DNA of 37,104 bases from Ignavibacteria bacterium (GTDB lineage Bacteria; Bacteroidota; Ignavibacteria; Tepidaquicellales; OLB5), in the NCBI GenBank assembly GCA_030835085.1, contig JAUQWQ010000162.1, positions 1 through 37,104 on the forward strand, written 5' to 3'. Shown piece by piece: positions 18,772-22,637 of the stretch. The position numbers and the translations under genes were made by a program. The notes beneath the pieces are model-generated. The model was not told where the DNA came from. It searched no databases and saw only the letters and a program-made list of their open reading frames with translations. The first letter of the stretch is position 1; each line of letters opens with the position of its first letter.

Positions 18772-19173
18772 ATGATATCAAAAGCTCAGCAGAAGAAACT
18801 GGTTAATACAGCTTTAAAAGTACTGAAAAACTCATATTCACCTCATTCAGGCTTTAAGGTCGGTTCTGCCCTATTAGGCAAAAATGGTAAGGTTTATGCC
18901 GGTACCAATGTAGAATTTGACGCTTTTTCGCTGACAGTATGCGCTGAGCGCGCTGCTTTATTCAACGGAATTTCAGGCGGCGAGAAAAAGTTCAACGCAA
19001 TTGCTATTGCAGCCGGTTCAGATAAATTCATTTATCCATGCGGACTTTGCAGGCAGGCTTTAGTTGAGTTCAATCCGGAAATGGAAGTGATATTAATAAC
19101 AAAGAGCAAAAAGGTTAAACATTTTATTTTAAAAGATATTATTCCAAATTATTTCAAGTTAAACAGAGTATAA
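18772..19173 (+). CDS. cdd: Cytidine deaminase
   Basis: 133 residues, the size of the small tetrameric type. Hydrolyses cytidine and deoxycytidine to uridine and deoxyuridine for pyrimidine salvage. Zinc site: [10 protein letters not shown] (C57, catalytic E59) with [11 protein letters not shown] (C90, C93). The substrate loop GTNVEFDAF has N46 and E48 in place. It begins a run of plus-strand genes and is 14 bases from thymidine kinase, so both salvage steps are co-expressed. Confidence 0.93.
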
Positions 19174-19187
19174 AGAAAATACGGGTT

Positions 19188-19754
19188 ATGCACGATATTG
19201 AAAATAAAAAAATGATGGGGCAGATAGAAGTTATCTGCGGAAGTATGTTCAGCGGAAAAACTGAAGAGCTGATTAGAAGGCTCAGACGGGCACAAATAGC
19301 AAAACAAAAAGTAGAGATATTTAAGCCTAAGATAGATAACCGGTACAGTGAAAGCGATATTGTTTCTCACAGCGAACAAAAAATACCCAGTACCGTTGTT
19401 GAAACAGCAGAGCAGATTCTTCTCTTTTCAGCTGAAGCAGATGTTATTGGCGTTGATGAAGCTCAATTTTTCGATTCATACCTTGTTGAAGTATGCCAAA
19501 AGCTTGCCGCGCAGGGTAAACGGGTAATAGTTGCAGGTTTGGATACGGATTACCGGGCTATTCCGTTTGAACCAATGCCCCAATTGCTTGCAATTGCTGA
19601 GTATATAACCAAGACCCTGGCAGTCTGTATGAAATGCGGCGCTCCTGCAAATCGTACTCAGCGTATATCTAATACCGGTGACAGGGTCCTTGTTGGAGCT
19701 ACTGACCTGTACGAAGCACGATGCAGAAGCTGTTATGAAGAACCAACGGATTAA
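19188..19754 (+). CDS. tdk: Thymidine kinase, type II
   Basis: 188 residues. Phosphorylates thymidine (and deoxyuridine) to dTMP. Walker [11 protein letters not shown] (about 18-27), the Walker B-like VDEAQFFD (D90), and the four-cysteine zinc lasso at C147-C150 and C179-C182 are all present, as is the lasso loop residue block [16 protein letters not shown]. It lies between cytidine deaminase and a DUF1801 gene, with a 5-base gap to the latter. The start could also be at one of the methionines at residues 9-10, just before the first strand; the ATG at 19188 is kept as the longest form. Confidence 0.93.
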
Positions 19755-19759
19755 TTAAC

Positions 19760-20191
19760 ATGTCCAGAGTTATTCATCCGGATTTTTTGGCATTATTGGA
19801 GTTGAAAGACCCGGTTTTAGTTGAGATTTTTACTGATCTTAGAGCATTTGTGATGGATATTTATCCCGATTGTTATGAATTGTTATACCATACTCATGCA
19901 CTAACTGCAGTATTTTCCGTAACAGAAAAACTTTCCGATGCTTATTGTATGCTTCCTGTATACACAAATCACGTAAATCTTGGCTTCAACAAAGGCACAT
20001 TGCTTGATGACCCTCATAAACTTCTTAAGGGAACAGGAAAACTAATTCGCCACATTCCGGTCAATAGTTATGGAGATTACAGGAGCAATAAAGTAAAAGC
20101 GCTAATCAATTCTGCAATTGATCTTGCAAAAAAAGACTATGAAAATATAGCTAAAGTAAACGGTAAAACAATTTCAAAAATAAAAAAGTGA
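19760..20191 (+). CDS. DUF1801-like protein
   Basis: 143 residues, cytoplasmic. The centre and end fit the DUF1801 (YdhG-like) fold: VNLGFNKGTLLDDPHKLLKGTGKLIRHIPVNSYGDYRSNKVKALINSAIDLA, where members have an L(x)FxKGA(x)LxDP, GxGKxxRHI pattern. An N-terminal helix pair (DFLALLELKDPVLVEIFTDLR) leads in. No catalytic residues are known for the family. It follows tdk by five bases, so is likely read through from the salvage genes. Confidence 0.7.
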   Translation: MSRVIHPDFLALLELKDPVLVEIFTDLRAFVMDIYPDCYELLYHTHALTAVFSVTEKLSDAYCMLPVYTNHVNLGFNKGTLLDDPHKLLKGTGKLIRHIPVNSYGDYRSNKVKALINSAIDLAKKDYENIAKVNGKTISKIKK

Positions 20192-20224
20192 AGCTGTATT
20201 CATTTAACATTATTTGATAGATTA

Positions 20225-20261
20225 TTGAAAAAAGTAATAACATCTTTCGGTTCAGCGTTTA
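20225..20261 (+). repeat. Left 37-bp direct repeat, copy of the LOG-gene 5' end
   Basis: These 37 bases are identical to 20767-20803, the first 12 codons of the LOG-like gene and one base more. In this copy they run straight into the DUF559 frame, adding MKKVITSFGSAF to its N-terminus. The identity stops at 20262. There is no good Shine-Dalgarno site before this copy. Confidence 0.9.
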
Positions 20262-20719
20262 AAGCGACCTCCCCAACCCCCCCAAAGGAGGGGCTTGAAA
20301 AGCAAAAGCCTGGCTATATTACGGCTAATCCTTTGAGTTATAATATTATCAAGCAGATCAGAGATGAACTTAAAAAGAATCATACTGAAGCAGAAACCAT
20401 AATTTGGGAATATCTAAAAAACAAAAAGACCGGTTATAAGATAAGAAGACAGCATATAGTAGATAATTTTATTGCTGATTTTATTTGCCTCCCCAAAAAA
20501 CTAATTATTGAAATTGACGGGAAGATCCATAAATTTCAAAAAGAGTATGATCAAATGAGAACTGAGAGATTCAAAGAATTGAAATTTACAATAATAAGAT
20601 TTACAAATGAAGAAGTAAAAGAAAATCCCAATGAAGTTTTTTTACAAATAAATCAAATACTCGAAAACAGCGTAGATCCAGACTCCCCTCCTTTGGAGGG
20701 GCTGGGGGAGGTCATTTAA
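20225..20719 (+). CDS. DUF559 endonuclease-like protein in an inserted element
   Basis: 164 residues from the TTG at 20225. Residues 1-12 come from the copied start of the LOG-like gene; 14-24 (TSPTPPKEG) are coded by the left inverted repeat; 34-147 are the DUF559 domain; and the tail DSPPLEGLGEVI is coded by the right inverted repeat. The domain shows the Vsr-like PDDEXK pattern: THAE-type motif HTEAETIIWEYL, YKIRRQHIVDNFIADF (D85), LIIEIDGKIH (E96, D98, H102), YDQMRTERFKEL. DUF559 is related to very-short-patch and other DNA nucleases, so it probably cuts DNA. Without the borrowed TTG, the first in-frame start is a TTG at the domain edge. No transposase is present. Confidence 0.8.
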   Translation: MKKVITSFGSAFKATSPTPPKEGLEKQKPGYITANPLSYNIIKQIRDELKKNHTEAETIIWEYLKNKKTGYKIRRQHIVDNFIADFICLPKKLIIEIDGKIHKFQKEYDQMRTERFKELKFTIIRFTNEEVKENPNEVFLQINQILENSVDPDSPPLEGLGEVI

Positions 20720-20766
20720 GAGTATTGCAATAATTATCACCTTTTTGTAGAATTGATGGAGGTCAT
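20262..20766 (+). mobile_element. DUF559-bearing insertion with GC-rich terminal inverted repeats
   Basis: The material between the two 37-bp direct repeats. Its left arm (20266-20293) reads GACCTCCCC ... CCAAAGGAGGGG, and its right arm (20685-20713), reverse-complemented, reads GACCTCCCCC ... CCAAAGGAGGGG, differing at three positions. Each arm can also fold on itself. The arms bound the DUF559 reading frame, and a further 53 bases follow, carrying a second GGAGGTCATTT (20758-20768, copy of 20707-20717) that supplies the ribosome site of the LOG-like gene. There is no transposase, integrase or RNA-guide feature. I infer an insertion; the exact edges could differ by some tens of bases. Confidence 0.7.
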
Positions 20767-20803
20767 TTGAAAAAAGTAATAACATCTTTCGGTTCAGCGT
20801 TTA
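20767..20803 (+). repeat. Right 37-bp direct repeat, 5' end of the LOG-like gene
   Basis: Exact copy of 20225-20261. Here the sequence continues into the intact LOG-like gene. Paired with the left copy it flanks the DUF559 element. Confidence 0.9.
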
Positions 20804-21297
20804 TAAATGAAAACGAACCTTTATATTCGGAGATTACTGATATTGGTAAATATATAGCTGAAGCTGGTTACACCATTTGCAGCGGCGGATATTATGGCAC
20901 TATGGAGGCAATTTCAAAAGGCGCAAAAGCTGCAGGAGGTAAAACGATCGGAATAACTGTTAAGGGCTGGAAAGCCTCTCCGAACAATTTTATTGATGAA
21001 GTTGTAGAAATGCCAAACCTAATGGAAAGAATTGTTGAACTGATAGGGATTGCTGATGCTTACTTAATTTTCAGAGGAGGCACAGGCACATTGGTTGAAA
21101 TTTCAGTTGCACTTGAACTGATGAACAAAAGATCTATGCCTGAGAAGAAAATGATATTTTATAGTGATTTCTGGAAGAATATGATTGAAATATTAAAACA
21201 GGATTCCCCCAAACTGAAAGATATGATAAACAGAAATGTTATTTTTATCCATGATGCAGGCGAAATAAAAAACACCCTGAATATAATACCCTCTTAA
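20767..21297 (+). CDS. LOG / TIGR00725-like nucleotide-binding protein
   Basis: 176 residues, a Rossmann-like fold of the LOG (former lysine decarboxylase-like) family: ITSFGSAF, ICSGGYYGTMEAISKGAKAAGGKTIGITV, and RGGTGTLVEISVALELM, equivalent to the GGxGTxxE active-site motif. Plant and bacterial LOG enzymes split cytokinin ribotides; the small bacterial TIGR00725 group has no settled substrate. The start is TTG (20767) with GGAGG four bases ahead. The whole family length is kept even though an element sits upstream, because the 37 bases of the 5' end are present twice. Confidence 0.85.
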   Translation: MKKVITSFGSAFINENEPLYSEITDIGKYIAEAGYTICSGGYYGTMEAISKGAKAAGGKTIGITVKGWKASPNNFIDEVVEMPNLMERIVELIGIADAYLIFRGGTGTLVEISVALELMNKRSMPEKKMIFYSDFWKNMIEILKQDSPKLKDMINRNVIFIHDAGEIKNTLNIIPS

Positions 21298-21356
21298 AAT
21301 CTTTTATATATAAATTATTTACCCTAAATTAGTAAAATTCCAGGGAGGTAAAACTC

Positions 21357-22637
21357 ATGAAAAAAAGTCTTACAGTAATTTTATCTATTGCAGTATTTAT
21401 TTTGATGCATTGTGAATCATTTTCACAATGGGTTGAGCTCAATAGCGGTGTAAGTGTTAAATTAAATTCACTTAGCTCAATAAAAGATCTTACTACATGG
21501 GCCTGCGGTAATAATGGCACGGTTATAAAGAGCAGTAATATGGGTGATACTTGGTCAAATGGCAACCAATCCGGGATAACTTCCGGCATAACACTTAATC
21601 ATATCTATTGTATAAATCAAAATATAGTCTTCTCTTCAGGTACCGACGGTTCTTCCGCATTCCTTTACAGAACAGTCAATGCCGGCGATTCCTGGGAAGT
21701 TATGAAACAGCAGCCGGGCGGTAAACTCAATGCCCTGCATTTTATTGATAACAATACAGGTATATTGATTGGCGACCCTGTTGGAGGAAGATGGTCGATC
21801 TGGAAAACTGTAAATGGCGGTACCAATTGGGACTCAACCGGATGCTATTTACCTCAAAATGGAAATGAAAAAGGATTTGCAAATTCTTTGTGGGCTTCCG
21901 GAAATAATATCTGGTTCGGTACGGATAATTTCAGGATATATAATACCAATAATTATGCTTCAAGCTGGCATGTTCAGCCAACAGGAACTGAAAAAAATTC
22001 CGTATCATTATGGTTTGATTTTGATTTCAACATAGGTCTTACAGGGAATGTAAACTTATTGAGGACATTGAACAGCGGAAGCACATGGAACGTTGAATCA
22101 TTACCAGGCAGCGGAAACATAGTCAGTGTTACAGGCAGCGCACATTCCAGGTTCAACTGGGCAATAAGGGCTGATAATAAAATATACCTTGACCCCCATA
22201 ACAGTACTACTTGGGAACTTGATTATTCAGCCCCAAACGGCAATTATACTTTTATAACAATTGAAAGGAATGGTTATTTCAGCGGAGCGGTTTTTGCATT
22301 AAGAGATAACGGCGGAATTTCGCGTACTTATTTTCTTGCCCTTGGAATTAATACTATTTCTTCTAATGTTCCTGAAAGATTCAAACTCGATCAAAATTAC
22401 CCAAACCCCTTTAACCCCGTTACAAAAATCAGATTTGCATTACCTGAAGCGGGAAATGTGAATCTTACGGTTTTTGATATAACAGGAAAAGAAATTGAAA
22501 CGCTTGTAAACGGAAAAATGGAACCGGGAATTTTTGAGGCAGATTTCAATGCATCAAAACTTAACAGTGGTGTTTATTTTTACAGACTAAGTACTGAAAA
22601 AATTTCTGAAACGAAAAAGATGATTTTAATTAAATAG
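21357..22637 (+). CDS. Secreted BNR/Asp-box propeller protein with T9SS sorting domain
   Basis: 426 residues. GGGAGG lies upstream of the ATG. Signal peptide about 1-22 (ending SFSQ). The body holds repeated blades with GNNGTVIKSSNMGDTWS, TVNAGDSWEVM, KTVNGGTNWDST and LNSGSTWNVES, i.e. the S/TxDxGxTW-like Asp-box of sialidase-type or Ycf48-like propellers. A T9SS type A domain ends it (KLDQNYPNPFNPVTKIRFALP to KKMILIK). Role unknown; probably a cell-surface or released protein. The next gene is a paralogue sharing GDPVGGRWSIWK-type blocks, 89 bases downstream. Confidence 0.85.
   Translation: MKKSLTVILSIAVFILMHCESFSQWVELNSGVSVKLNSLSSIKDLTTWACGNNGTVIKSSNMGDTWSNGNQSGITSGITLNHIYCINQNIVFSSGTDGSSAFLYRTVNAGDSWEVMKQQPGGKLNALHFIDNNTGILIGDPVGGRWSIWKTVNGGTNWDSTGCYLPQNGNEKGFANSLWASGNNIWFGTDNFRIYNTNNYASSWHVQPTGTEKNSVSLWFDFDFNIGLTGNVNLLRTLNSGSTWNVESLPGSGNIVSVTGSAHSRFNWAIRADNKIYLDPHNSTTWELDYSAPNGNYTFITIERNGYFSGAVFALRDNGGISRTYFLALGINTISSNVPERFKLDQNYPNPFNPVTKIRFALPEAGNVNLTVFDITGKEIETLVNGKMEPGIFEADFNASKLNSGVYFYRLSTEKISETKKMILIK

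Follow-up and report, generated by a model that had tools for sequence, protein, structure and literature searches.

The window, by which we mean the whole 37,104-nucleotide stretch that was analysed, comes from an Ignavibacteria bacterium whose genome we refer to as G000. On its forward strand a thymidine kinase gene (19188-19754; Pfam TK, E 3e-55, supported by synteny) and a DUF1801 gene (19760-20191; Pfam E 2e-6) are followed by a DUF559 nuclease frame (20225-20719) and a LOG-like gene (20767-21297), the latter lying directly next to thymidine kinase in element-free relatives. Both frames open with TTG and encode 164 aa (Pfam DUF559, E 4e-29, with the domain at about 20351-20662) and 176 aa (SLOG cluster 4 / LOG-like, E 2e-16) respectively. 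An exact 37-bp direct repeat, TTGAAAAAAGTAATAACATCTTTCGGTTCAGCGTTTA, identical at 37 of 37 positions and far exceeding chance, occupies 20225-20261 and 20767-20803 of the forward strand with a spacing of 542. The right copy opens the LOG-like gene and keeps it full length, while the left copy gives the nuclease frame its TTG and 12 codons, codons 1-12 being the same in both frames.

Between the two copies are GC-rich inverted repeats at 20266-20293 and 20685/6-20713 on the same strand, with a complementarity of 91 % over 23 nt and 75 % over 28 nt. Both are palindromes with an outward-facing tail, GACCTCCCC-AA-CCCCCCCAAAGGAGGGG on the left and CCCCTCCTTTGGAGGGG-CT-GGGGGAGGTC on the right, and the nuclease frame reads unbroken through both of them as TSPTPPKEG and DSPPLEGLGEV. 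The DUF559 frame is the sole frame inside the 37-bp repeats, where we found no transposase. The sequence-only reading of this locus had described the exact repeats, the translated inverted repeats, the borrowed start with its 12 residues, the intact LOG-like gene and a putatively mobile, nuclease-coded element lacking a transposase, and in all these respects it agrees with our analysis. It had also placed a ribosome site at the edge of the element, and this point has to be revised. The GGAGG motif (20758-20762), which precedes the right copy only, sits in a leader (20714-20766, forward strand) that aligns to the leader of the sister species (1/500 shuffles). The same native leader is found at an empty site as GGGGAGGTCAT-TTG (genome G003), and the distance from the right inverted repeat to GGAGG is 45 bp; the motif is thus not a product of the element's edge. 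No ribosome-site-like motif was found upstream of the left TTG at 20225.

The order cytidine deaminase, thymidine kinase and LOG is conserved genus-wide. In seven genomes (G003, G004, G006, G007, G009, G010 and G011) the interval between thymidine kinase and LOG is element-free and contains a single LOG start, as expected if the second copy belongs with the element, a check that the sequence-only reading had proposed. The sister species (G012) carries an orthologous element with a protein identity of 88 %, in which the left palindrome is conserved and the right one identical. Its left flank lies on a separate contig and runs from DUF1801 through TTGAAAAGAGTCATAACATCATTCGGCACAGCGTTTA to AAGCGACCTCC; it contains a left LOG-start copy that differs at 6/37 positions from the right copy of that genome and at 5/37 from the window's. 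There the left LOG-start frame stops after the first palindrome unit and thus no longer feeds the nuclease. A third genome (G002) has only palindromes before LOG, including one identical to the right palindrome of the window, and keeps a left junction with decayed LOG-start sequence (0/2000 shuffles). Tandem unit duplications precede LOG in both G012 and G002. Within a single genus the locus thus occurs empty, with palindromes alone and with the nuclease, which makes it a natural series on how insertion and target copying work.

Since the left copy is present in the sister species and a decayed trace remains in G002, the LOG-start duplication is a genuine and old feature that goes with the element and predates the species split. 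An assembly artefact as the source of the left copy was rejected because G012 independently has a left copy beside a palindrome. Immediately to the right of the palindrome, a candidate for a third LOG-start copy in decayed form did not reach significance (1255/2000 shuffles). With the insertion predating the split and a synonymous divergence of at least 0.8 between G000 and G012, the 37/37 identity in the window must reflect homogenisation at a later time. The two copies of each species have derived bases in common at positions 11 and 20, the pattern that gene conversion would leave.

The right copy retains both the native leader and the native downstream sequence, while the left copy has no leader; the left copy is thus the extra one and lies at the left edge of the element. 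The leader that separates the right palindrome from the right copy measures 53 bp in the window and 77 bp in G012, which means that the repeats do not sit flush against both element ends. The DUF1801 gene (19760-20191; L238) is present in G000 and G012 and not in G003, and its arrival with or before the element is possible. Because this gene, too, is an addition to the interval from thymidine kinase to LOG, the left flank may have been built by one or several events.

The window nuclease matches DUF559 (PF04480) with 101 bits against a cut-off of 20.6 and contains all of the conserved residues of the family (E, D, ExDGxxH and D). Compared with its ortholog in the sister species it has a dN/dS of 0.08, which indicates strong purifying selection. 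Searched as a sequence profile, the family hits the DUF559 structure 3hrl and, with E 9.5e-6, the EDxHD homing endonuclease I-Bth0305I (3r3p). A Foldseek comparison of the predicted structure (pLDDT 88) gave TM scores of 0.76 to 3hrl, 0.71 to 3r3p and 0.62 to Vsr, with 1cw0 and 1vsr also among the matches. Sequence profile and predicted structure thus both point to an EDxHD/VSR catalytic fold. No self-splicing intron or intein was detected around the nuclease, the interval 19000-22000 having no Rfam match, which also discards a structured RNA there, and no Hint domain being reported in the window nuclease. A defence system or anti-phage gene was likewise discarded, with no PADLOC model matching at E 0.1.

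We looked at the surroundings of other DUF559 genes and found that palindromes accompany them in general. In the genus and order, where 69 DUF559 loci were used, the density of GC-rich hairpins is 3.6/kb up to 300 bp away and 0.34/kb at distances above 600 bp, and 59 of the 69 loci have a hairpin on at least one side. A broader set of 80 DUF559 genes covers, going by record titles, at least nine phyla (Nitrospirae, Bacteroidetes, Nitrospinota, Desulfuromonadales, Marinimicrobia, Verrucomicrobia, Acidobacteria, Planctomycetes and Patescibacteria). Here hairpins with arms of at least 8 occur at 4.4/kb within 250 bp compared to 0.2-0.5/kb from 500 bp out, and hairpins on both sides are found for 52/80 DUF559 genes compared to 2/51 control genes (Fisher p 2e-13). 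The commonest palindrome has the consensus CCCCTCCTT..AAGGAGGGG.

For two pairs of loci of the same subfamily at unrelated sites (L032/L067 and L074/L085), homology begins and ends precisely at the outer edges of the palindromes, with none beyond. These sequence comparisons show that the candidate mobile unit consists of palindrome, nuclease and palindrome, and that it recurs at many unrelated sites. Palindromes of the CCCCTCCT..AGGAGGGG type also occur without a nuclease, 17 times in G000 and 164 times in G028, while the reversed control pattern gave 0. Similarity between nucleases correlates with similarity between their palindromes, weakly so at non-syntenic loci (89/2000 within-genome permutations), and for this reason strict nuclease-palindrome specificity was not retained.

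When 395 genomes of the phylum were searched with the window protein, nearly all of the best matches outside the genus fell in open frames of 850-1400 aa. We take the hosts, read from sequence, to be RecG, LeuRS (at two sites), MetH, methylmalonyl-CoA mutase and AddA/RecB-like helicases. UvrC, HsdR and a type III methylase, read in the same way, are hosts at other loci. The nearest relatives lie in frame in the host ORFs, have no start codon of their own, and share the N-terminal motif KPGYITANPLSY with the window protein. The capture of a start described by the sequence-only reading fits this family, whose closest members are startless and read through from host ORFs. The orientation of the palindrome tails differs between the two types of genes: stand-alone genes have 30 in/in and 4 out/out arrangements, compared to 10 out/out and 4 in/in for embedded genes (Fisher p 1e-4). 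As the window cassette has outward tails and no ATG of its own ahead of the domain, it fits the embedded type that needs a borrowed start.

In the genus, some UvrC genes have no insert, some have just a pair of palindromes and some the complete nuclease; the insert is always in frame and no host sequence is duplicated. G000's own UvrC has an in-frame, nuclease-less palindromic insert (L108 and L119, on contigs C127 and C12) at which the assembly splits into two contigs. Many Bacteroidota carry an in-frame DUF559 insert in MetH at one inter-domain site before the cobalamin-binding module (L138-L140, L142, L143, L146, L149 and L150). The LeuRS inserts use two alternative sites, one in L134/L144/L145 and the other in L135/L141/L147/L148.

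Direct repeats of at least 18 bp (G/C runs masked) surround 14/173 DUF559 loci and 0/158 control windows, and by alignment score the flanking repeats of 23/164 DUF559 loci are above every control. The bulk of these repeats are copies of the palindromic unit or, at one locus, a tandem cassette. The latter is found in Pedobacter alluvionis (L170), where two DUF559 cassettes lie in direct tandem and an identical 65-bp stretch spans the start of each gene. Duplication of host-gene sequence is absent at most DUF559 loci, and a piece of the adjacent gene is duplicated at only 3 of about 170: the window, a locus with a diverged duplicate of a restriction-subunit-like start (L010), and one with a duplicated gene end of about 65 bp, which lies no more than about 20 bp from either end of the element (L236). 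The sequence-only reading had proposed to examine other DUF559 genes for inverted repeats and target duplications; the same kind of inverted repeats is indeed there, but the duplications are rare.

One explanation for the left copy is that palindromes are unstable and that the LOG start was copied by template switching or tandem duplication after insertion, outside any mobility mechanism. The frequency of unit duplications around DUF559 genes and the tandem units at the LOG site of G012 and G002 would suit this. The left copy is found in both species with a full element, and probably in the third, which dates it to about the time of insertion and makes such an origin unlikely in our view. Alternatively, the repeat may be a classical long target-site duplication, in which a staggered cut of about 37 bp in the LOG start was filled in after insertion. 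An exact direct repeat does flank the cassette, empty sites are single-copy and G012 has the copy together with the element, and the duplicated gene end at L236 lies close to both element ends. We nevertheless judge this explanation rather doubtful, given the leader between right palindrome and right copy and its absence on the left, the in-frame UvrC and MetH insertions, which show no duplicated host sequence, and the small number of loci with such repeats. Neither the flush host repeats nor the encoded transposase of an IS or transposon with long target duplication was found. The proposal of the sequence-only reading that the element duplicates a long stretch of its target thus holds in that the copy travels with the element in G012, but the copy is not flush and does not represent a general rule.

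We lean, with modest confidence, towards the reading that 20266-20713 is a widespread transposase-free cassette, a nuclease of VSR/EDxHD fold within palindromes, which would be mobilised by cut and repair. The association of nuclease and palindromes is established by the counts above; from it we infer cleavage and mobility. The nuclease would break DNA at or near its own palindrome, or at a target resembling it, and the cassette would then be copied in during repair, through recombination or template switching, in a homing-like manner. At the LOG site, the cassette would have entered the leader in an ancestor of G000 and G012, and probably of G002 too. The leader of the empty site in G009, ATATAACATTATGATTATTGAAGG, resembles the left flank in a weak match (28/2000 shuffles), and TTGAA is present both in this leader and in the LOG start. 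On the basis of this match we hypothesize that the short TTGAA identity primed break repair, during which 37 bp of the LOG start were copied to the left junction; such priming would explain why the copy begins exactly at the start codon. The copied LOG start would have given the nuclease frame its start while leaving the native LOG intact, and recombination between the copies may later have made the two identical in G000. Points that weigh against this reading are the loose match of palindrome type to nuclease subfamily at non-syntenic loci, the many loci whose host gene is not duplicated, and the interrupted left LOG-start frame of G012.

The nuclease could instead be a resident Vsr-like repair enzyme with the palindromes acting as terminators or regulatory hairpins. 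The strong purifying selection would be consistent with such a function. In Caulobacter the DUF559 protein VsrA elicits the SOS response in cells without a cytosine methylase; the DNA damage that it causes depends on loss of the methylase, and the authors favour a repair role (PMC12907096). By analogy with that proposed mismatch-repair function a host role for DUF559 is possible, and the same result suggests that a member of the family can damage DNA in vivo (PMC12907096). We consider the repair explanation improbable for the locus studied here, since presence and absence at many sites and several copies per genome are features of mobile units, in-frame insertion occurs in unrelated essential genes, and homology stops at the palindromes. 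Vsr, VsrA (PMC12907096) and E. coli YcjD (DUF559) share the domain family or fold with the window nuclease; for these proteins host mismatch repair is described or proposed and mobility was not considered.

The cassette that we favour shares its anatomy with the REP/REPIN and RAYT (TnpA-REP) 'REPtrons', which likewise have short palindromes with an unpaired conserved tail, found in inverted pairs and dispersed (PMC3733652, PMC3116915, PMC8266576). In both systems palindromes flank the gene of a DNA-cutting enzyme, and copies occur within repair genes too. The RAYT enzyme is an HUH tyrosine transposase, whereas here it is a VSR/EDxHD-fold nuclease; the gene between the window repeats is DUF559 and no HUH Y1 transposase (TnpA-REP) was found there, so the element is not a REP/RAYT element. 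The tail is also different, GTAG in REP/RAYT and a G-rich, unpaired GGGGGAGGT here, and unlike in REP/RAYT the palindrome motif is common to several phyla. That a RAYT or other transposase moves the palindromes in trans, with the nuclease as a passenger, would account for the REP-like anatomy, known REPs being tied to TnpA-REP (PMC3733652, PMC8266576), but it is highly improbable given that the gene within the palindromes is the nuclease in nine phyla and that the GTAG tags marking RAYT-linked REPs (PMC3733652) are missing.

Other systems resemble the cassette in part. CGTC-tagged REPs, for which no dedicated transposase is described (PMC3733652), are likewise orphan palindromes found in several of the same phyla with intragenic copies, but differ in tag and stem (CGTC, 8-9 bp stems). 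Rickettsia palindromic elements also insert in frame in unrelated proteins; they measure about 150 bp and have no nuclease gene described (PMC10969869). I-Bth0305I (PDB 3r3p) is alike in catalytic fold and sequence, and both nuclease genes interrupt host genes. A self-splicing group I intron houses I-Bth0305I, which also has additional DNA-binding regions; the nucleases described here show no intron or intein and either measure 100-165 aa or are fusions with the host protein. Homing endonucleases can, however, also be free-standing (PMC3943268). In its workings the cassette would be a homing endonuclease gene with REP-like ends; it is neither REP/RAYT nor IS.

A more far-reaching interpretation, which we put forward only tentatively, is that these cassettes form an undescribed and widespread class of elements in which a VSR/EDxHD nuclease targets its own palindromic ends for homing and propagates them. 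Such elements would sit in frame in the putative essential proteins MetH, LeuRS, RecG and UvrC without splicing, would be the autonomous partner of orphan REP-like repeats, and in the window would have obtained their start from the first codons of the target during break repair. In the open literature that was searched we found no description of a palindrome-bounded DUF559 mobile element, and among the DUF559 papers there no title or abstract deals with palindromic repeats or mobility or pairs DUF559 with inverted repeats.

Proteins of the DUF559 family are abundant and for the most part unassigned, and for some palindromic repeats the absence of a mobilising enzyme is on record (PMC3733652). 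A nuclease bounded by palindromes of a cross-phylum motif would bring these together as a concrete and testable transposase-free mobilisation system, and would account for the recurrent inserts of the SPxPxxEG type in conserved bacterial proteins. With 164 CCCCTCCT..AGGAGGGG palindromes and seven DUF559 genes, G028 would be a good system for studying recent spread. A laboratory member of the family with a similar anatomy is the DUF559 gene ycjD of E. coli K-12 (L242, 1560-2400): a long hairpin lies ahead of the gene, and behind it come GC-rich repeats of the CCCCTC..GAGGGG type together with a degenerate copy of the gene's own 3' end.
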